DNA of 64,000 nucleotides from Oehlia diaphana. Its lineage: Eukaryota; Glomeromycota; Glomeromycetes; Glomerales; Glomeraceae. Positions 27,329 through 61,853 of the stretch are shown piece after piece; the stretch's first letter is position 1; each line of letters opens with the position of its first letter. Both the position numbers and the translations under genes were made by a program. The notes beneath the pieces are model-generated. The model did not search any database, had not been told where the DNA came from, and worked only from the letters and a program-made list of their open reading frames with translations. The stretch lies in assembly GCA_003833135.1 (NCBI GenBank), contig QZLH01000259.1, positions 1 to 64,000 of the forward strand, written 5' to 3'.

Positions 27329-28037
27329 NNNNNNNNNNNNNNNNNNNNNNNNNNNNNNNNNNNNNNNNNNNNNNNNNNNNNNNNNNNNNNNNNNNNNNNN
27401 NNNNNNNNNNNNNNNNNNNNNNNNNNNNNNNNNNNNNNNNNNNNNNNNNNNNNNNNNNNNNNNNNNNNNNNNNNNNNNNNNNNNNNNNNNNNNNNNNNNN
27501 NNNNNNNNNNNNNNNNNNNNNNNNNNNNNNNNNNNNNNNNNNNNNNNNNNNNNNNNNNNNNNNNNNNNNNNNNNNNNNNNNNNNNNNNNNNNNNNNNNNN
27601 NNNNNNNNNNNNNNNNNNNNNNNNNNNNNNNNNNNNNNNNNNNNNNNNNNNNNNNNNNNNNNNNNNNNNNNNNNNNNNNNNNNNNNNNNNNNNNNNNNNN
27701 NNNNNNNNNNNNNNNNNNNNNNNNNNNNNNNNNNNNNNNNNNNNNNNNNNNNNNNNNNNNNNNNNNNNNNNNNNNNNNNNNNNNNNNNNNNNNNNNNNNN
27801 NNNNNNNNNNNNNNNNNNNNNNNNNNNNNNNNNNNNNNNNNNNNNNNNNNNNNNNNNNNNNNNNNNNNNNNNNNNNNNNNNNNNNNNNNNNNNNNNNNNN
27901 NNNNNNNNNNNNNNNNNNNNNNNNNNNNNNNNNNNNNNNNNNNNNNNNNNNNNNNNNNNNNNNNNNNNNNNNNNNNNNNNNNNNNNNNNNNNNNNNNNNN
28001 NNNNNNNNNNNNNNNNNNNNNNNNNNNNNNNNNNNNN
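27329..28037. other. assembly gap (709 Ns)
   Basis: An unbroken run of n. The two matching repeat copies on either side suggest it was caused by a repeat the assembler could not cross. Confidence 0.99.
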
Positions 28038-30834: not shown

Positions 30835-30835
30835 N
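30835..30835. other. single unresolved base (n) at a repeat junction
   Basis: The lone n directly precedes GCCTTCCGTGAATACTGTAA, the start of repeat copy B. The position suggests a contig join. Confidence 0.95.
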
Positions 30836-38795: not shown

Positions 38796-39510
38796 TTGTA
38801 AATAATGAAATAATTGAAATAATGAGAATAAATTCAAAGTCAAGAAAAATTTGTGAGTGGAGAAGAATTATAATAAAATGGTATTATCTTATTGACTTAT
38901 CAAGGAGAAAATTAGTTTATATAGTAAGTTTGCCATGAACCCTTGAAATTTTTTGATTTGCTGATCAAGTAGTTTCCATTTGCATTTTTTTTTTTTTATA
39001 TTTGCTTTTGTTAGATTTTTTGATCATTTTAAATTTAACCATTTTCATAAAATGGAAAGGTTGACCTGCTCTTTACATACTTTCTCATTTTTTTTGATTG
39101 AAATCTTAGTGTCTTTAATAAATTATCAAAAAGAATATTTGAGTTTCGCCACAAATCTATTTTAGAAGGTACAGTATATGATTATTAGGTTTTCTGGTTA
39201 TTTTTCAATTCAATAAAAATAATTCTAAACAAGATACATACATTTTGTTAATAAATAAATCAGTCTAGTTCAGAATACTTTAATATATTGGGGAGATATA
39301 CCATAAGTGAGAATTTAAAGCAAATATTTTCATTATTTTATTACTTGCGACTGACTAAAAATTGTTAAGAAATGCTATATTTTTTTGAAATTGTCACTTG
39401 AAATTTTATTTCTCTAAAAGATTAGGGGTGATTTAGCAATTTTTCACCTAGGTAGGGTGATTTAACCTGATAATTTTATATATTTTTATATAATTTACCC
39501 GGTGATATTA

Positions 39511-48640: not shown

Positions 48641-49818
48641 CTATCCAATATAATTTTCCAAAGATGAAACATCTAAATCTCTGATCAAATTCGACATCAT
48701 TTCCAGGTGTTTGTCCATACGGATTTCTAATAACACATCTGCTACAACCCATGGAAAACTCAACAGACAAGTCTTGCCTCCTCGATCAGGATGTTCTTCC
48801 TGATTATAAGTTACGTGATACCACGCGCAAGCTTTTGCTTTGGATTCATCGTTTATTGGAATCGGTATATATAAACTAAAAGGTGTGGTATCATCCGGAT
48901 CATTATCATCATTGGTATCCTGAGTCAATCCAATTAAGAATCTTTTTCGATAATTATGAATGATATGCGATATTGTGCCGGCAATCGCTTCCCGTATGTC
49001 TTGGTTTTTTCTGCCATCTGTCCGTTTGTATCCCAACAATTGTGCGGTTAAAATCTCCGCTTCCGTCTTAACTCTGTACTTTTTCATAAGATTACGAATT
49101 TCACCATTATAATTATCCCGAAAAACGAGGGCCTCATCAATATAATCTTCAAATCCGTCAAACATAAAATCTTCATTTAGAGCAATGTCTTCTGCGTTAT
49201 ATCTTAATAAAGGGTCACTATTCGGATTATCTATTTTGATGTTACGATATAATCGTCCAAGTATTTTTCCGGATAGATATGATTCTTTGAATTTATGCTC
49301 CATAAAATCAGGATATTTACTGATGGAGGGTAGACGATCGTCTACTGGAACTCCCGTTTTATTGAAGTCGACTGCTTTTGAATGCTAAATAATTAAAACA
49401 TTAGTATTTAATTAAAAGTTACTCGAAAATATTATTAACTACATACCAGTTCGGCTAGTTTAATACATTCTTCAGATCTAACACCGTCTATACTATGATC
49501 CGCAAAAGCTAAATGAAGATTTCCGATTTGACCAAGACGATCATTCAACATGAAATCTTTAAAAAAACCGCAAACGTCGGATATTTCGACTGATCTATCT
49601 TCTATGATTTTTCTATCCGGAGGATCGTAATTCATTGGGTCTTCATTCGAGTTGATGAGAATTCGTTCGTCAAAACAAACGAAAAATTCGTCCCCATCTT
49701 ATTTATGTAAAATAAATTAATGATTGTAACCAGATTATGAAATAATAATAATTAATTATTACCTAAATCGCCTCCGGACTATAATGTTAAAAAATATAAG
49801 ATGCATAAATTAGCTAAA

Positions 49819-49857
<39 letters not shown>

Positions 49858-49861
49858 TAAA

Positions 49862-49895
<34 letters not shown>

Positions 49896-52820
49896 ATATC
49901 ATTGCATACCAGAAGATTTGGCAAAGGTCTATCTCCTTTTTGACTGAATACCACGCAGTTTCTTAAATGGGATAATTCTGGGATGTCTACTGCTTGAACT
50001 TTCCTGATATCACCAGGGTGCAAACACGGGTTCCTGGTAATCACTATTAAAGAATATATAATATTAAATAAATCAAGATATTTTACATATAATTTGTAAT
50101 GTGTGAAAAACTTACTAGCTTGACCCGTCCAAACTTTGTGCTCTCTTTGAACTTTATTGTTCGCCGAATCAAATGTTTGATGTTCGGAAACGATGGTAGA
50201 AGTTTGAATGAAAATTTCACCCTCTTCCAAAATTCCACTTTCATCAATAACACCTAGTAATAAAAATGACTTGGGCATTAAAATACGCGCTTTGTATCTT
50301 AGAGATTTCAACGCAAAAACTCGTTTGCACTCCAAGAGTGCCTTTAGGAACGGATCAACGGTTCCTCTCATCATTCCCTAAAATTACACACATTTTTTTT
50401 TTTTAAAAAAAAATCACCTAATTGAGTCTATAGTATGATAAAATATATTCAATACGAACCGCGTCAATCATACTAAGAATTGTACGCATAACATGGGAAC
50501 ACTCTCTTGTACCAATATTACGCTTTACAATTTCGCGCGCTTTTTCCTCATTAGTCATCATCGAGTCTATATCTGCGCGCATTTCGTTTTGGAGAGTAAT
50601 AAACACATCATCTTGTACTCCAAGCGCCGACAGTAATAATATAATCTGTCGGTTTAAATGACCAGGCAACGGATTTTTAACCGTTTTAACAATTTCCAAA
50701 ATGGAAGAAAGTGCGATAAATTTTTTTTGACTGGGGCGTATGCATAGGACGTCACCTTCAAGACTTGGATCAACTGCAACTACTCCCTAAAATAAATTTA
50801 TAATAAGGTTAAATTAATTTAGGAATAATATTTTAACACATTATAATCCATACCTTACATCCACCAAACCGAAATTGGAACACTGAAGGGATTTCCTTGT
50901 CTTTTGGCTTTTTTCCCCAATACCTTTTCGCTGCACGTTTTGCTAGACTCTCCGATATTTTTCCACAACCATCACTAAAAAATGATTGAAATGGTTATTA
51001 TTTCTTAAATTCAAATGATGACCAAAATGGTTCTCTCATACCCTCATACCTAAAGTTATGATCATTCCTTGTGATATCCGGAATAACCACTATTTGATCT
51101 TGATTTAAAATCAACGTTCCAACAGTGCTTGTAAAACATTGGCCCATTCGAGCTGCATATAATGAAGGAGCCTGAATGCCGCTAATTAAAATAAATCACT
51201 TAAATTAATACCATTATACGATAATTTTTATAATAAAAGATTAAAATTTATAACCTACCTAAAATCTCCCATGTAAGCACGAATAAAATTTGCGTTGAAT
51301 TCTCCATCAGAAGCAACAAACCAACATGAAGCTTCTTTTAGCTGTGACGACGAAAATGCTAGAAATTCATAATGTCGTCCAGCTAAACAAATTCCGGTAT
51401 TTAGTATAGTAACTATTCTCCTTATTATATCGATACTTTCATATTTATTGACATATAGCCTATCAAGATTCTCATCTCTAAACGAAACACGTAAGAAACG
51501 ATCTATTTTATCTTCATATAAGCGTAATATTCTATTTGATGACTCAAAATTAGGTCCATCGAAATACATTTTAGTTGGAGTAATGGTTGCGTGGTTTACC
51601 CATACGCAACGAGAATTATTTGCTGAAGGATCTGAAGGGCGCCAAACGTTAAATTTATCACAAAAATTTTTTAGCGCAGTTTTAAAAATTGATACCGGAC
51701 GTTCTTGATATCTTTTATCGAAAGGATCCCAATATTTCGTTGATATTTGATTTAGTGCATGCCACGTCACCATTTCTTGGTTTTCATAGTAAACTAGGTC
51801 AGCTAATTGTTCACCCAATTCTTCTTCGATTTCATAGAATGTCAATTTTCCATAAGACACTAAACTTTCTAATAAAAAACAAATTTTAAAAGGCAATATT
51901 TGACATATTTCATCAAAATAATGTCTTGAATAATTTAATTCAATACATTTGACCACGCATTGAGGTATAGGACGTGGAACACCTCTTATTACAAAATTAT
52001 TTAGCACATCATGCAATTGATCAAGATTATCACTAAAGGTTAACCTATATACTAAACATCTACCAAAAATGTTAACATTTCCGGTCCAATCAAAAGTTCT
52101 GATCCAAAAATCTTGTTCTTCCTGATACCACGAAGTAATACCCATTTTTTCTGCTTTAACAAACTCGCCAGCTTTGCAATAAAGGTACGGTGGTAGCTTT
52201 AGACTGATATAAAGGGAATTTGTACCATCTTTCTGGTTTTTTGTATCAAGAAAAATTCCACGCGAGTTTCCAGCCAAACTGCGAAAAGAAATCTTGACAC
52301 GTCGTTCTTCTGAAGATTCGCCCGGTAAATTGAACCCTTCTAGTATTAAAGCTTCGTCAGCCTTTGAAAAATATATCGTAGGTGTTTCATAATAATTTGG
52401 ATATATCCATTCTGTTAAGAACGTAAATTGTTCTGGAAAACCGCCATTATTTCTTCTTTCACGCATATGCGTTATAGATAATTGCTCACCCCAGTTTCCA
52501 ATTTCAATATTTGATAAAAGAAATTTAGCTATCTCATACGCATTATTAGATTTCTCTCGTCCTTTCTTATTCTCTCTAAAGGGAAGTATACATAAAGATG
52601 TTCCCCTGCAATCCGGAGGATGAAAAACTGCATATGAGATGCAAATTTTTGCATCATCTTCTTCCACAAATTCTGCAAAACCAAAAATAGAATTCTGATT
52701 TCTCATATTTCTTGGCCTTTTCAAGTCAACTTTAATAACAGGTCCATATTGTGACAAAGCTTCAACTACATCGCTTGGTATAGCATCATTTGGAATATTT
52801 TTAATAAATATTTTTGACAT
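48641..52820 (-). CDS. RNA-dependent RNA polymerase (eukaryotic silencing type) with N-terminal RRM
   Basis: Nine exons on the minus strand give an estimated 1180 residues. Approximate exons: 52820-51259, 51186-51056, 50975-50853, 50787-50461, 50374-50117, 50044-49910, 49778-49763, 49703-49447 and 49386-48641. Residues 3-75 (KIFIKNIPNDAIPSDVVEAL) form an RRM. Then come the polymerase core landmarks QAPSLYAARMGQCFTST, SDGCGKISESLAKRAAKRYW, VFQFRFGGCKG, ITRNPCLHPGDIRKVQAVD, LRNCVVFSQKGDRPLPN, the catalytic SGGDLDGDEFF with three metal-binding Asp, and ADHSIDGVRSEECIKLAELH then SKAVDFNKTGVP. These define the QDE-1/RDR family, which copies single-stranded RNA into dsRNA for Dicer. No stop or frameshift was found. 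It is divergent to a dsRBD gene 1.4 kb away. The C-terminus stops at a clear TAA/TGA-bounded frame at 48641. Confidence 0.93.
49763..49778 (-). other. 16-nt micro-exon encoding part of the polymerase active site
   Basis: The minus strand reads TTAACATTATAG, then the 16 nt TCCGGAGGCGATTTAG, then GTAATAATT. Spliced, it supplies SGGDL and the first base of the next Asp. The next exon (after AAATAAG at about 49704) starts ATGGGGACGAA and completes DGDE. Joining PLPNLL to SGGDLDGDEFF restores the family pattern exactly, and no longer exon fits. The intron therefore cuts the DLDGD metal-binding motif. Confidence 0.8.
49817..49897. repeat. alternating T-run/A-run tract in an RdRP intron
   Basis: Two cycles of about 15 T then about 24 A lie in the 131-nt intron before the micro-exon. 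T-runs and A-runs are self-complementary and could form a hairpin in the transcript. The lengths may be unreliable because homopolymers are hard to sequence. Confidence 0.8.
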
Positions 52821-54255
52821 TATGTTGAAAGAATTATATATATTAATTATGATATATTGCGGTGATATTCTTTCGTTATAGTTTCTTTTCTTTTTCTTCT
52901 TTTCTTTTTTGTAAGGATTTCTTGATATTGATTCTTGTGACGAAAGGTAAGTTGGGAAAGTTTTTTTTTCAATTTTTCAAAATGTTTAGGAATGAATTCT
53001 CTTTTATTACTTTGTTTATGGAGTAAAAACTCCGACTTAGAAAAAAGGATCTACATGAGTAAATTGAATTTACACCGGACATCAAAAGTAAATCATCTTT
53101 ATAATGAAATATTTCCAAATATGTCTACCTACCTCACTTTGTACTACTCAGGTGACTTCACGCCTTCACGATCATACTTTTACTGATTTCTCCACTCATA
53201 TGTATTACTTATCCAAACTTTTATTAACTAGACATTGAGTTCTATAATTAATAAGTATAATTCGTGTATAAATGGCAGTGGTGGCAGTGGATAACCGATA
53301 CTTTATATACCCGACGCGTGTTGCAAACATTACAATGTGGCTAATCATCAATATTTTAGTGTGTGTAAGTAGAGTATGGATCCGTTATCCGTTTGAATAA
53401 ATTATTCTTTGAAAAAATTTAATTAATGGTTTAAACCAAAAATTTTATATATTCTCGCTATAACATACGACCCAAACTTTGTCATCTGGCTTAGTGACTT
53501 AGTGACTATCCGCTAAACCATTTTTAATCTGCAGATCTGATTTTTAATGATCACTGATCCAAATTTATTAATATCCAGTCAATCTCAGTCAAAAGAACGG
53601 ATCCAAACTCTGTGAAATTATTATCACACATTGCTTATTTGCTTATAATTCTGGCCAAAAAGGTCAAACCCCACTCTTTTTCTTTTTACCCTTTTTACTC
53701 ATTTCACCATATTTGAGTTTAACACGTGATAATTAACCAATCAATGATGAACATATAATGGAGTAACAAATATAATGGAGTAACGTAACCTAGTAACTAT
53801 TTAGGTTTTCTCATTACCTTTAGACCTGATGATATGCATTACGATAACGATGTACTGAACGCCTTGATTGTTCAAATAAAATCTAATCTGTACAGTAAGA
53901 ATGATAGAATATTCGAATTTTAGAATATTTAAAATACATCGATTAAGCCGGAACTTGACAATTTTTTGACAAATTATGATAATAATAATAATAACAATTC
54001 GTCAGTTGTCAGTTGTCATATTTAGTCGGCCCGGTGATCATACCACATAAGGGTTACGTAAACAAATAAGCCACAGTTTTAAGTTAAAAATAAATAGGGG
54101 AGAAATTTTTTTGTTTTTTTTTTTTTTTTTTTTTTAGGGTTCTTCCTCCCTTCTTTCACTCAAAAAAAAAATAAAAATAATAATAATAAAATATTATTCT
54201 GTGTTAATAGTCCTCTTGCACAACAATACTTTTGTTCTAATTATATATAATTAAA
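52821..54255. other. shared upstream region of the RdRP and dsRBD genes
   Basis: 1.4 kb between two divergent start codons. It holds T/C-rich sequence just upstream of the RdRP (52870-52915), a CACGTGAT at about 53724, AATAATAATAATAACAATT at 53980 and a T-run of about 22 before the dsRBD gene (54113-54136). The open frame at 52992-53186 has no support. It could contain a shared promoter, but no TATA box is convincing. Confidence 0.45.
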
Positions 54256-56343
54256 ATGTATAGTTTACCACGTATTCCTCACTCCGTGAACTATATTAAA
54301 AACAACAGTTTTTCTAATTTACCAACAAAGATAAATAATGATGTTTTTAACTTTATAGATAGTAATCGTTCATCCATATTGACGAAAAACAAGGTCGCTA
54401 ATATTGGTAGCAGTGGACCTTCTAATTTATCAGTAAATAATACTTTTGATATTAACCGTAATAATAATGGTAATACTTCTAATTTACCGACAAAAAACAA
54501 TGTTTTCCAACCGGTTAATAATAGCAACAACGGTAGTGGTGGTGGCTCCTCTAATATGCCAGTAAATAATAACGATTATAAGCCCACTAGTCATGTTAAT
54601 AGTAGTAGCTCTCCTAATATTCTTGAAGAAAAATCTTCTAATATACCAGCAACTAAAGTTCTTGAGGAAATGTATAAGACACTGGAATTGGAAATTCCTC
54701 CAGTGTTTACGTTTCGTCAGGAAGTTTTTACACAAAATTTTTATTGCAGTGCTGGTTTTATGAATAAATGGTATGATACAAAAGAAGCATTTCCGAATCA
54801 AGAAATAGCAAGAGAAGCTGCGGCTCAAAGCCTATTGAAGATAATTATGGCTTCGAAAGAATATGAAGATTATCTTCAAGAAAAGGAAAAACAGGGTACG
54901 AACCAACAAATTAATGTTGGGAGATTATCCAAATTTTTAAAAAATTTGCATATAAGTCCCGTCACGTCTAATACGCCTAATATGCCTAATACGCCTGACT
55001 CGCCTGACTCGCCTGATACTCCTGTTGCGCCCTTTGCACCTGTTATGCCTTTTACACCTGTTATGTCTGAAATAATGAAAAGAAAGAAAAAGAAAAATAA
55101 GGGTAGAAATTTTATTAATAATGGTAAATTTAGAAAAGGAAACAAGCAATCCTTTACCCCAAGGAATACGATTCAAAAATTATCCAGGAGTCAAAGGAAG
55201 AAGTTAAAGAGACAAATTAGGATGCAACAAAAAGTTATTGGAAAACAGGATGCAGTGCAATCTATATTTTGCCCTAATCCTGTTTCCAGACAGGAAAATA
55301 AACCTAAGAAGGTGAAGTTTGATGATAAGATACTTGTTCTTGGTCAAGACTTTATACCAAAACCAAATGGTTCAAAGAGTTTAAGAGGTATAATGAGTCA
55401 AAAAAATCAAAATTCATCTTACCAACATGATCAAATCTCTAATGAGCCCATAACCTACCAAATGTTGGTAAGGGAATTCTTGGAGAAGGATAAAATCTAC
55501 GTTACCCCAAGCAAGTTCTTGGATGATTTTTGCATCATCTCAAATATTTCGAAGCCAAATTATGATTTCTACAATGATGGTTATGGAAACTTCATTGCGG
55601 AAATTTTAGTTGGTGACGTTAAATATATAGGTGAACGAGTTTTTTGTTACGTAGAAGAAGCTCGGGAATGTGTAGCAGAGATAGCTTTTAATATATTATA
55701 TAACAAAAGTGATGGGAATATAAAAACGAAATTTAAAGACAGACTTTCGTTTGTATCTTCATTGGACATGCCGGTTATGCTTATGCCGGACATGCCTAGC
55801 GAAGCAGCTGCATCATTTGGTTTACCACAGCAAAGACATGAAAGTTACATTCCAACATACCCAAACTGCAACTCCTCTTGCATACAACAATTCGGAATGC
55901 CGCCACCTCCATTACCAACAACTTATTGCAATATTCCGATGGAACCTTCTCGACCGATGTCTAACACGTCTGAAAATCCATCAACTTTTGATTCAAGTCC
56001 TTTGACGGCGCCACTTTCTGTTTCAAATCTTGATAATGTTCAAAAAACACGTCAAGAAATTCCTACACAACAGATTCAGGTAGAACCTAAACATTCGACT
56101 ACCGTACCTCGACAACAAAATGATTCAATAACACCTTACGTTTTGCACAAACTTGCTAAAGAAAGAGGTTGGGGCGTCATTGATTATCAGTACAGTAAAA
56201 CCCTTAAAGGGTATAAATGTACTTGCTATATTAGAAAATTAAAATTTACTTCAAATCCTTGTATTGACAAGGATACTGCCAAGAATCAAGCAGCTAAAAT
56301 TGCCTTATTAGCATTGCCGGAATATAGCGATTGTGAAATCTAG
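54256..56343 (+). CDS. protein with three double-stranded-RNA-binding-like domains
   Basis: One uninterrupted frame of 695 residues. Residues 1-130 are Asn/Ser-rich low complexity with repeats of SNLPTKNN/SNMPVNNN. dsRBD-like 1, about 133-205: VLEEMYKTLELEIPPVFTF, then YCSAGFMNKWYDT and AREAAAQSLLKIIM, the last being the typical second helix. Residues 235-275 form a Pro/Asp/Thr repeat (NTPNMPNTPDSPD), followed by a lysine-rich stretch (RSQRKKLKRQIRMQQK) likely for nuclear or RNA binding. dsRBD-like 2, about 399-485: TYQMLVREFLEK, then FIAEILVGDVKYIGER and ARECVAEIAFNILY. dsRBD-like 3, about 625-690: ITPYVLHKLAKERGWG, YKCTCYIRKLKFTS and AKNQAAKIALLAL. Domain 3 is the clearest. It would bind dsRNA, and it is divergent to an RdRP gene, suggesting an RNA-silencing partner (inference). 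It is not a known Dicer or Argonaute. Confidence 0.82.
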   Translation: MYSLPRIPHSVNYIKNNSFSNLPTKINNDVFNFIDSNRSSILTKNKVANIGSSGPSNLSVNNTFDINRNNNGNTSNLPTKNNVFQPVNNSNNGSGGGSSNMPVNNNDYKPTSHVNSSSSPNILEEKSSNIPATKVLEEMYKTLELEIPPVFTFRQEVFTQNFYCSAGFMNKWYDTKEAFPNQEIAREAAAQSLLKIIMASKEYEDYLQEKEKQGTNQQINVGRLSKFLKNLHISPVTSNTPNMPNTPDSPDSPDTPVAPFAPVMPFTPVMSEIMKRKKKKNKGRNFINNGKFRKGNKQSFTPRNTIQKLSRSQRKKLKRQIRMQQKVIGKQDAVQSIFCPNPVSRQENKPKKVKFDDKILVLGQDFIPKPNGSKSLRGIMSQKNQNSSYQHDQISNEPITYQMLVREFLEKDKIYVTPSKFLDDFCIISNISKPNYDFYNDGYGNFIAEILVGDVKYIGERVFCYVEEARECVAEIAFNILYNKSDGNIKTKFKDRLSFVSSLDMPVMLMPDMPSEAAASFGLPQQRHESYIPTYPNCNSSCIQQFGMPPPPLPTTYCNIPMEPSRPMSNTSENPSTFDSSPLTAPLSVSNLDNVQKTRQEIPTQQIQVEPKHSTTVPRQQNDSITPYVLHKLAKERGWGVIDYQYSKTLKGYKCTCYIRKLKFTSNPCIDKDTAKNQAAKIALLALPEYSDCEI

Positions 56344-57636: not shown

Positions 57637-59346
57637 TCAATACAAATAGTATGAAAGATCTTCAGAATCATGGTTGTTAAAATAAACGAAATAATCATCA
57701 TTTAAATTGAAAGTTTTATCAATCATTGAATTAACATTTAGATTATAATTATAAATATATTTATTATTATCCTTTCCTATTCCTTCTTTATAACAATAAT
57801 CTAAATTATTTTGAGCATCAAGATTTCCCGCTTCAGCAGATTTTGTATACCATTCAAGTGCTTTCTTTTCATTTAATTCAATTCCTATACCATATTGATA
57901 ACAAAAAGCTAAATTATTTTGAGCAAAAGAATTATTATTTTTAGCAGATAAAATATAATATTCAACAGCTTTCTTATTATTTATTGAAGTTCCTATACCA
58001 TATTGATAACAAATTCCTAAATTATTTTGAGCTTCAAAATTTCCTGATTCCGAAGATTTTAAATACCATTCAAATGCTTTCTTTTCATCTTTTAAAGCTC
58101 CTATTCCATATTGATAACAAGAAGCCAAATTATTTTGAGCATTAGAATTACCCTCTTTTGCAGATATAATAAATAATCTAAGTGCTTTTAATACATTCAT
58201 ATTCGTTCCTATACCATTTTTATAACAAAAAGCTAAATTATTTTGAGCATCAAAATTTCCAGCATCAGAAGATTTAGAATACCATTTAAATGCTTCCTTT
58301 TCATCTTTATCAATTCCTATACCATATTGATAACAACAAGCCAAATTATTTTGAGCAATAGGATTATTTCCTTCTTTTGCAGATTTTAAATACCATTCAA
58401 ACGCTTTCTTTTCATCTTTATCAATTCCTATACCATATTGATAATAAGAAGCTAAATTATTTTGAGCAAAAGAATTTCCTTCTTCAGCCCAATTTAAAAA
58501 CCATTCAAATGTTTTCATCTTTTCTTTTTTATCCATAATTATTCGTAAAGTATAAAAAATACTTAAAATTAATTTTGCTAAAATATTATTTTTTTTATTA
58601 ACTAAATTCTTATAATAATCAAAAATATTTTTTTTAATTTCATCAATATTTTTTAAACCAAATTTAACACATAATAAAAAGAAATATATATTATCATAAT
58701 AATAATAATTATTATTATTACCTAAAGAATTTTTTTTTTTTCTACATTCTTCAAAATCTTTTAAATGTTGTAAAGTTAAATTATAAATTAAATCATAATT
58801 TGAATCCAATTTTTTTATTGATAATGGTTTATTAATAATAAATTCTTTATAATAAAATAATGATAATAAATATTTTCCAATAATTACATTTTTTAATTGT
58901 AAAATGTAATCCTCAAAATTATTATCATCATCATTATCATCACCATCATCATCATCATATTCTTCTTCTTCTTCTTCTTCTTCTTCATTTTCTTCTCTTA
59001 TATTTAAATCTATCATTTTTAAAATTTCTTCATTTTTAATTGCCAATAAATATAAATTTAAACATTTATTATAATCTATAAAATAATAATCCATATAACC
59101 ACATTGATGAAATAATCCATTTAAACTTGAAAACCAAATATCATGATTTTTATGATTTTGTATTAATTTAATAATATCATTAATATCATTAAATCGTCTT
59201 AATTTATCATTAATTATTTTAAATGAATTAATTAAACATTCAGCTTGATTTTCTTTAAATTCATTGGTATTATAAATTATTGTATTAAATAATTTATTCA
59301 TAAATTCTTTTAAAAATATTTCATCTTTATTATCGTTTTTATTCAT
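57637..59346 (-). CDS. Sel1-like repeat protein
   Basis: A single 569-residue frame, start ATG at 59346. Residues 1-270 are Asn/Lys/Ile-rich with an acidic stretch (EENEEEEEEEEEYDDDDGDD) and no recognised domain. Residues about 275-530 hold seven 36-residue Sel1 (TPR-like) repeats with the pattern NAQNNLAxCYQYGIG followed by DEKKAFEWYLKSAxxGN. Such solenoids act as scaffolds for protein complexes, as in ERAD (Sel1/Hrd3) and chitin synthase activation (Chs4/Skt5). Rhizophagus has hundreds, often fused to kinases; no kinase domain is present here. Repeat units are highly alike at the DNA level (108-nt period), which favours repeat-number variation. The exact biological role is unknown. Confidence 0.92.
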   Translation of the reverse strand: MNKNDNKDEIFLKEFMNKLFNTIIYNTNEFKENQAECLINSFKIINDKLRRFNDINDIIKLIQNHKNHDIWFSSLNGLFHQCGYMDYYFIDYNKCLNLYLLAIKNEEILKMIDLNIREENEEEEEEEEEYDDDDGDDNDDDNNFEDYILQLKNVIIGKYLLSLFYYKEFIINKPLSIKKLDSNYDLIYNLTLQHLKDFEECRKKKNSLGNNNNYYYYDNIYFFLLCVKFGLKNIDEIKKNIFDYYKNLVNKKNNILAKLILSIFYTLRIIMDKKEKMKTFEWFLNWAEEGNSFAQNNLASYYQYGIGIDKDEKKAFEWYLKSAKEGNNPIAQNNLACCYQYGIGIDKDEKEAFKWYSKSSDAGNFDAQNNLAFCYKNGIGTNMNVLKALRLFIISAKEGNSNAQNNLASCYQYGIGALKDEKKAFEWYLKSSESGNFEAQNNLGICYQYGIGTSINNKKAVEYYILSAKNNNSFAQNNLAFCYQYGIGIELNEKKALEWYTKSAEAGNLDAQNNLDYCYKEGIGKDNNKYIYNYNLNVNSMIDKTFNLNDDYFVYFNNHDSEDLSYYLY

Positions 59347-59460
59347 TGTTTTTTTTTTTAAAAAAAAAAATAAAAATAAAAATAAAAAATAAAAATAAAT
59401 AAAAAAAAATAAATAGATAAATAGATAAATAAATAAATAAATAAAAATTATTAAAAGGAT
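59347..59460. repeat. A-rich microsatellite upstream of the Sel1 gene
   Basis: T-run and A-run, then AAATAAAAAT units and a (AAAT)n/(GATAAATA)n array up to about 59455. No coding capacity. Confidence 0.85.
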
Positions 59461-60680
59461 GGTTATTTTTATATATAAAATTTACTAATTTACGAATATT
59501 TACCTATCGTAAATTTATGTGTGAACAAGAAAAAAAAAATTTTTTTTTTTTCTCCCGTCTAATTTAAACAAACAAAAAAGAGTCTAAACCATATTAAAAC
59601 GTTCGGTCATTTCCGTCCCGTAAATTTTTGTCAGGTTACACGATGTCAAAAAAACAAGGCCTTCTTTTTGATTATTATGTAGTTAGCCGTCAAAAAGCGT
59701 AGCCCCATTCCTGATTTGTCGATCACTCGGACCCGTATAATCGTGGAAATATCACGGAATTCCATGGAAGATCTATCGGCGATCAAAAGTGCAACTACTA
59801 TAACTACTATTTTTGCGGCAAACTACATTATAATCCATCTTTGGATAGAATGATGATCATTTTAAAGAAATAATTCGAAGCAAACTACAATAATGAAGTT
59901 GCCAAATCCAGAATCCAGGCAGGGAATTAGGAAAACTTGACTGTGAATTCTATAGGCTGGAGATTAAAATTCGTTATAGTGAGAAATTCACTATACTGAG
60001 GATCATATATATATAAAAATCTGTACCTGAACTTTTCTTCATTATAGCAAGTTATTCATCAGCAGGGAAGTTCAATATTTTAACCCCTCAACGACTATAT
60101 AAAAATTCACTATAGAGAGGGTGAAATTGAAGAAAGTTATAGCAAAATAGATTCTCTAGTAAAGGACTTTAAGTAAAGGCTTATTGACTTATATTTAATT
60201 CTTTCTTAATTAAATGATCGTTAAAATTAATTAACATTCTTTTTAAATAATTTGAAAATATTTCATAATTTCCCATTTTAATCTTATATCATTTATTATA
60301 ATTACCCTTTTTATAATTACCAAATACAGTATATCATCAAAAATTGTAACTTCAGATTACAACCTAGGGTTACAAAGGATTACGGCTCAAAATTACACAA
60401 AAGTACAAAAAGTGTGCTGTATTAAAGTTGTAATACGAAATTATATCGTAAATTGTAATTGGTTGTATTTCAAATTAGTGTAATGAAATCACAGTTACTA
60501 CAATCATTTTTTATCAAAATTAGATTAGCAGAATTTGGACAAAATTCCAGCCCGGATTAAGTTTTTTGCTGTGCTGTAAATGTGAATGGGGTGTAACGGT
60601 CAAAAATGGATGAAATGAACAATTAATAATAGCCAATATTTTAATAAGAACTATATGAACCCTATTACATAAAGTTACAA
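59461..60680. other. gene-free region
   Basis: 59960-60170 carries several TTATAGTGA/TCACTATA words in inverted order (TCGTTATAGTGAGAAATTCA and AAATTCACTATAGAGAGGG), probably a degraded TIR element of the same style as 1161-1588, but its ends could not be fixed. 60340-60500 is rich in GTTACAA/TTGTAA words. No gene seen. Confidence 0.45.
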
Positions 60681-61030
60681 CTTTTACGGCAATACTTTAT
60701 CGACTTTACGACAATATTTTATCGACTTTACAGCAATACGTTATCAACTTTTACGGCAATACTTTATCAACTTTACGACAATATTTTATCGACTTTACAG
60801 CAATACTTTATCAACTTTACGACAATATTTTATCGACTTTTCGGCAATACGTTATCAACTTTACGGCAATACTTTATCGACTTTACAGCAATACGTTATC
60901 AACTTTTACGGCAATACTTTATCAACTTTACGACAATATTTTATCGACTTTTCGGCAATACGTTATCAACTTTACGGCAATACTTTATCGACTTTACAGC
61001 TATCAACTTTACGGCAAATACGTCACAACT
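60681..61030. repeat. 22-bp minisatellite, about 16 units
   Basis: Head-to-tail copies of CTTTACGGCAATACTTTATCGA with variants (ACGACAATATTTT, ACAGCAATACGTT, TTCGGCAATACG). Variant units recur in a higher-order pattern: the five-unit run beginning with the CTTTTACGGC type at about 60750 is seen again near 60900. Units carry CGA or CAA at their ends. Confidence 0.93.
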
Positions 61031-61853
61031 TTTACAACCTGATTACAACCATTACGGCAGCAAACACTACTAATCCAACTTGATATAGACATAATAATTT
61101 TTAATTTCATAATTATTTATTTATATTATCAAATAATTCATTAAAATCTAATAAATAATAATTTCAGGTATTTTTTTTTTAATAATATCATTTGGACCAA
61201 GTATATTTAGGATTTAAATTTGATATTAGATTAGAGATTTTTTTTAAAAAAATTTAATATACTCTCATATTTTTATAATAAATATCTTCCACTTTTTTTT
61301 AAATCGTTTCCTTTTTAATTGGATTAATTGAATTGAGAAAATTAAAAAAAAAAGATTTTCTTGAGTTAAATCAATTGATTCAAACAAAATTTTTTTTCAG
61401 GAATTTAATATCTTCAATTATGACATAAAGTACGGTATCAGGCAACATCGACAATTAAAATTTAAAAAATAATTATAGTATTATTTGTTTATTATTTATT
61501 TTTGAAATATTATATTTATATAATTATTATTATCTACCGATCGATCACATACAACATACAAAGTATTATTAGTGTTATCCAATGTAAGAATTCGCCAATA
61601 AATATCGTATATCTAAAAACATGTACCATCAAGTAAATTATTACTAAACATAATTTAATATGATCATACATGTACAGTATGAGATCGTTTCCCTATACTC
61701 AATGTAATATTGTAATATCGTAATATTGTTATCGTATTATTAGTTATCCTCATAAGCTCATGCAAGATTTTACATAATTGTTAATTAGGTCGGTTACTAT
61801 GCATTAGCATAATAATAAAATTATTGGGAGACGGTCCCGTCAAACCGATAATA

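Follow-up and report, generated by a model that had tools for sequence, protein, structure and literature searches.

What does it mean that a gene for an RNA-dependent RNA polymerase (RdRP) lies beside a gene for a protein predicted to carry three double-stranded RNA-binding domains (dsRBDs), and do the two products work together in RNA silencing? The question is raised by a locus in a 64,000-nucleotide stretch of Oehlia diaphana DNA (assembly GCA_003833135.1, contig QZLH01000259.1, positions 1 to 64,000; hereafter the window), in which the two genes are arranged head-to-head with their ATGs 1,435 bases apart (Table 1). A first-pass annotation made from the sequence alone had described an intact RdRP with an SGGDLDGDEFF core and an N-terminal RRM, an intact 695-residue protein with three dsRBD-like segments, and starts on opposite strands about 1.4 kb apart, and each of these elements is borne out below. 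We find that the linkage of the two genes has very probably been kept across three genera. Our tentative reading, to which we give somewhat less than an even chance, is that both proteins act in the same RNA-silencing pathway, the polymerase as the maker of dsRNA and the dsRBD protein as a cofactor that would pass it to Dicer or Argonaute.

Gene models in the window were built without altering any base. In the splice model, the polymerase gene is read from the minus strand in nine exons, and the spliced product has no internal stop over its 1,182 residues. It displays a complete RdRP domain (Pfam PF05183, profile positions 1-582 of 582, E 2.5e-186), an N-terminal RRM_1 (E 9e-08) and, from residue 847 onward, the motif SGGDLDGDEFF, whose codons are divided between exons 7 and 8, and it is 96% identical to the public Rhizophagus irregularis protein P0010. 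A broken gene was considered, and rejected: the first splice model left a TAG in frame at the end of exon 4, while an alternative GT-AG intron, which reproduces the MIDA/GMMRG junction of P0010, restores normal splicing. That the gene encodes an intact cellular polymerase of the RNA-silencing type, with its catalytic motif, is well supported at the level of sequence.

As for the class of the enzyme, QDE-1, with which it had first been compared, turned out to be a poor choice. With P0010 as the query in place of the window RdRP, plant RDR2 matches at residues 371-1156 (E 6e-130), while QDE-1 chains match at E about 7e-17 only; RDR2 is thus far closer among solved relatives, and assignment to the QDE-1 class was ruled out. 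Like RDR2/SAD-1-class enzymes, the window RdRP has a complete catalytic domain, the DLDGD motif and an N-terminal RRM, and SAD-1-type fungal proteins are among its listed matches. It differs from that class in that the Glomeraceae have several paralogue groups (A, B and C), to one of which it belongs, and is otherwise ordinary.

The second gene is a single-exon open reading frame. For all three segments of its product, AlphaFold2 predicts the α-β-β-β-α fold of a dsRBD, which, among the folds in the structural lists, could be matched to solved dsRBDs, and on these models the segments are almost certainly dsRBD folds. They are joined by long linkers predicted to be unstructured, as are residues 1-128. 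Sequence profiles recognize segment 3 only: PF00035 (dsrm) scores E 0.0016 and 19.4 bits (cut-off 23) when the whole protein is searched, and 23.2 bits when the segment is excised. Excised segment 2 has no Pfam match and excised segment 1 a chance-level one, while five of the nine aligned family members match the dsrm profile at E<=1. No PDB sequence matches excised segments 2 and 3 at E 10. Matches to PF20519 (Polycystin, one of nine members, E 0.00052), rhinovirus VP3 (E 0.44), PF03408 (E 0.15) and 6tvh (E 0.093, in the low-complexity N terminus) were judged to be due to chance.

Neither the window protein nor its nine aligned members match a catalytic Pfam domain, which bears on the idea that the protein belongs to a silencing route of the kind found in Mucor. 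Such a route does exist there: according to PMC4395119, the R3B2 protein of this likewise early-diverging fungus combines an N-terminal RNase-III-like domain with two dsRBDs and works with RdRPs, and its family was found in Mucorales only. The shared features are the dsRBDs and the functional link to RdRPs. However, no RNase III profile matches the window protein or any of the nine members, so that no nuclease domain is in hand, and the N terminus is predicted to be unstructured; the two proteins are set apart by their domains. We therefore rejected an identity with R3B2 or another RNase III, and consider a Mucor-type route improbable.

In dsRBDs that bind RNA, three lysines typically open helix 2 and make contact with dsRNA. 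Two of these are kept in helix 2 of segment 3 (KDTAKNQAAK), where the first position is K in seven of the eight untruncated rows (Q in P0007) and the next basic position is K or R in all eight, P0005 being truncated there and left out. Segment 1 has one basic helix-2 position (8/9 rows), and at the matching position segment 2 has R in two rows and H in a third, the other six having Q. Residues 398-486, which include segment 2, are acidic (9 K+R vs. 15 D+E), whereas linker 201-345 is strongly basic (30 vs. 10). These residues also speak to the possibility that the protein is a brake, which would sequester polymerase-made dsRNA and limit silencing. Proteins composed of dsRBDs only can suppress RNAi, as described for one from an invertebrate DNA virus (PMC4231766). 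A second dsRBD without a basic helix-2 cluster, and a first with a single basic position, do not make an obvious high-capacity dsRNA sponge, and we regard a brake as very unlikely.

Between the window protein and its Funneliformis geosporum relative P0008, identity is 66, 71 and 63% in segments 1, 2 and 3, and 31-46%, with many gaps, in the linkers. The segments are more conserved than the linkers, and the dsRBD domains are therefore under constraint. A conserved unstructured box, KPKKVxFDD, is 64% identical between the same two proteins; its K, V and F are invariant in 9/9 rows, while x differs (K, T or Q). We take this short motif to resemble the RVxF docking site for phosphatase-1; P0007, P0008 and P0009 contain further chance matches to an RVxF-like motif.

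Relatives of the dsRBD protein form nine protein clusters at E<=1, six of which come from R. irregularis (two), Rhizophagus clarus, Glomus cerebriforme, F. geosporum and Funneliformis caledonium. Every relative assigned to an organism belongs to Rhizophagus, Glomus or Funneliformis, and NCBI taxonomy places R. irregularis, G. cerebriforme and F. geosporum in the Glomeraceae, Glomerales. One cluster, P0001, is 96-98% identical to the window protein; together with the 96% of P0010, this would place the source of the window in R. irregularis or very near it. A second search with the nine-row alignment, in which the best 7,993 candidates by shared words were scored, recovered eight of the same nine clusters, missing P0009, and no new one, and the viral contigs scanned yielded no relative. 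For a search of this kind, the lack of relatives outside the Glomeraceae is a detection limit, not proof of absence. The public model of P0005 (R. clarus) stops within the third dsRBD, without helix 2, which reflects either an error of the gene model or a true truncation.

Signs of linkage elsewhere come from public listings, in which the longest contig holding each protein was compared between proteins of the same species. The polymerases compared were the best 120 of 136 relatives at E<=1e-20, which span the Glomeromycotina, plants and other fungi. Among the polymerase matches listed, a polymerase of the same species has a contig of equal length for three of the nine dsRBD clusters: F. geosporum (31,610), G. 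cerebriforme (491,812) and R. clarus (2,067,704). Equal lengths are strong but indirect evidence for a common contig. In F. geosporum, the dsRBD protein 4587_t and the polymerase 4586_t are moreover numbered consecutively, which makes them neighbors on the assumption that numbering follows the contig.

The polymerases of Rhizophagus and Glomus fall into three well-supported groups, A (with the window RdRP), B and C, named after the first tree was viewed, and those of Gigasporales and of Acaulospora stand apart in clades of their own. The two polymerases of F. geosporum pair with each other, and the best tree puts them with group C (support 79/89, not well supported). In approximately unbiased (AU) tests, a tree placing both with group A was not rejected (p 0.118), nor was one uniting A, B and C without them (p 0.183). 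One simple reading is that the locus adjoining the dsRBD gene may be ancestral and groups B and C dispersed copies. The second F. geosporum polymerase, P0015 (5586_t), is on a contig of another length and its public model lacks DLDGD, which 4586_t has; of the 24 Glomeromycotina rows checked, 17 contain the motif, and some of those without it seem to be wrongly annotated.

A division of labor can be proposed from these features. The RdRP would turn aberrant or transposon RNA into dsRNA, which the third dsRBD and the basic linker may hold, while the second dsRBD, acidic and without a basic helix-2 cluster, might dock on a protein partner (Dicer, the polymerase or Argonaute), as perhaps does the first. 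The cofactor could then pass the dsRNA on to Dicer. For R. irregularis, PMC6399891 reports a single Dicer-like enzyme next to 40 Argonaute-like proteins and 21 RdRps, of which 19 have transcripts. The head-to-head layout might help joint expression of maker and handler. A distance of 1.4 kb is long for a shared promoter, and an inverted-repeat pair lies inside it. Its arms (16 bases each, 94% complementary, 209 bases between) have one further match in the window, with three mismatches, at 39510, and the pair is possibly a small transposable element.

How does such a cofactor compare with known ones? TRBP and Loquacious (Loqs) have three dsRBDs each, the third of which binds Dicer. Like these and R2D2, the window protein has no catalytic domain match and several dsRBD folds on flexible linkers, and individual segments superpose on the dsRBDs of all three; at the sequence level nothing matched at E 10 or better apart from part of the alignment, which matched R2D2 at E 2.9 (not significant). 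Helix-2 residues suggest that here, in reverse of TRBP and Loqs, RNA is bound by the last domain while docking falls to the middle one. Plant HYL1 and DRB4 carry a pair of dsRBDs at the N terminus. In structural comparisons each of the three segments has HYL1, DRB4 or the DCL4 dsRBD2-DRB4 complex as its top match or close to the top, while the window protein differs by having three dsRBDs, widely spaced. A more specific proposal is that the protein is specific to the Glomeraceae and serves an RDR-class polymerase as a dedicated, genomically linked cofactor, a fungal counterpart of TRBP, Loqs and DRB4 of separate origin or diverged past recognition, with domain jobs reordered and possible phosphatase-1 control via the KVxF box; in this full form, we hold it to be rather unlikely.

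Several observations weigh against a shared, conserved silencing role. Foldseek returned no match for the dsRBD segments at E 0.001 or better, and the structural match lists also contain the dsRBDs of Staufen, DHX29 and tRNA-dihydrouridine synthase, so that the pathway cannot be read from the fold. Six of the nine dsRBD clusters lack an equal-length contig among the polymerase matches listed. In three of these six, the eight-intron polymerase gene may have been mis-called at source; unequal lengths for P0001 and P0010 say little because both clusters pool many strains; P0003 and P0009, also among the non-matching clusters, are unexplained. The R. clarus polymerase on the equal-length contig belongs to group B rather than to the window's group A, and a tree with F. 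geosporum 4586_t alone in group A was rejected (p-AU 0.0006). The linkage signs are raw counts with no gene-order baseline, and the head-to-head orientation is seen in the window only; PMC10234402 compares assemblies of one species and offers no between-genus baseline. Finally, a spore study (PMC8647823) detected no RDRP among the RNAi components it found, which included 10 AGO proteins; this argues against a role in spores.

Accordingly, the two genes may simply be neighbors without a shared function, local gene order persisting in the Glomeraceae while the dsRBD protein serves mRNA localization as Staufen does, translation control or virus sensing. We give this a substantial, if clearly less than even, chance. 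Against it, two adjoining proteins of dsRNA metabolism with linkage signs in two more genera would be a pointed coincidence, which is an argument from plausibility and no test. Of the explanations considered, a role in the same silencing pathway comes first, a little ahead of unrelated neighbors. The silencing pair first proposed stands in its structural part, and adjacency leans its way in F. geosporum and G. cerebriforme; the six clusters without a match and the rejected placement of 4586_t count against it.

Silencing partners composed of dsRBDs only are known from animals and plants. Dictyostelium RbdB is another (PMC4894637), and within the open-licence literature searched we found no paper on such a cofactor in Glomeromycotina or any fungus. 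If the shared silencing role is real, these partners would extend to fungi. In R. irregularis, Argonaute-like and RdRp families are expanded next to one Dicer-like gene (PMC6399891), and in the same literature we saw no description of the way dsRNA travels between them. A dsRBD cofactor linked to a polymerase would offer a handle on this routing, and also on transposon control and the small RNAs exchanged with plants.

Table 1. Positions in the window of the two genes and the features between and within them.
Feature	Position	Strand	Basis or remark
RdRP gene, RDR2-like class, 1,182 aa	48641..52820	-	ATG at 52820, stop ending 48641; splice model, translation, P0010 identity, PF05183 + RRM_1
RdRP exons 1-5	52820-51259, 51181-51050, 50974-50854, 50786-50460, 50377-50116	-	
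RdRP exons 6-9	50043-49910, 49778-49763, 49697-49447, 49384-48641	-	
RdRP intron 4	50378..50459	-	GT-AG; same junction in P0010; position settles whether polymerase is intact
Region between the two start codons, 1,435 bases	52821..54255	.	
Inverted-repeat pair, spanning 241 bases	53371-53386 / 53596-53611		
Gene of the three-dsRBD protein (695 aa, one exon)	54256..56343	+	ATG 54256, stop ending 56343
dsRBD-fold segment 1, residues 128-200	54637..54855	+	
Conserved unstructured box KPKKVxFDD, residues 346-384	55291..55407	+	9 aligned rows
dsRBD-fold segment 2, residues 414-486	55495..55713	+	
dsRBD segment 3, residues 623-690, the likeliest to bind RNA	56122..56325	+	

Elsewhere in the window, a minus-strand open reading frame of 614 aa with Sel1 repeats (57637-59481; PF08238, E 4.3e-61) faces the 3' end of the dsRBD gene. 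A run of N at 27329-28037 corresponds to an assembly gap or a masked stretch, and a single N is found at 30835. Three overlapping plus-strand open reading frames at 60648-61083 encode repeated peptides, as would arise from a short tandem DNA repeat.

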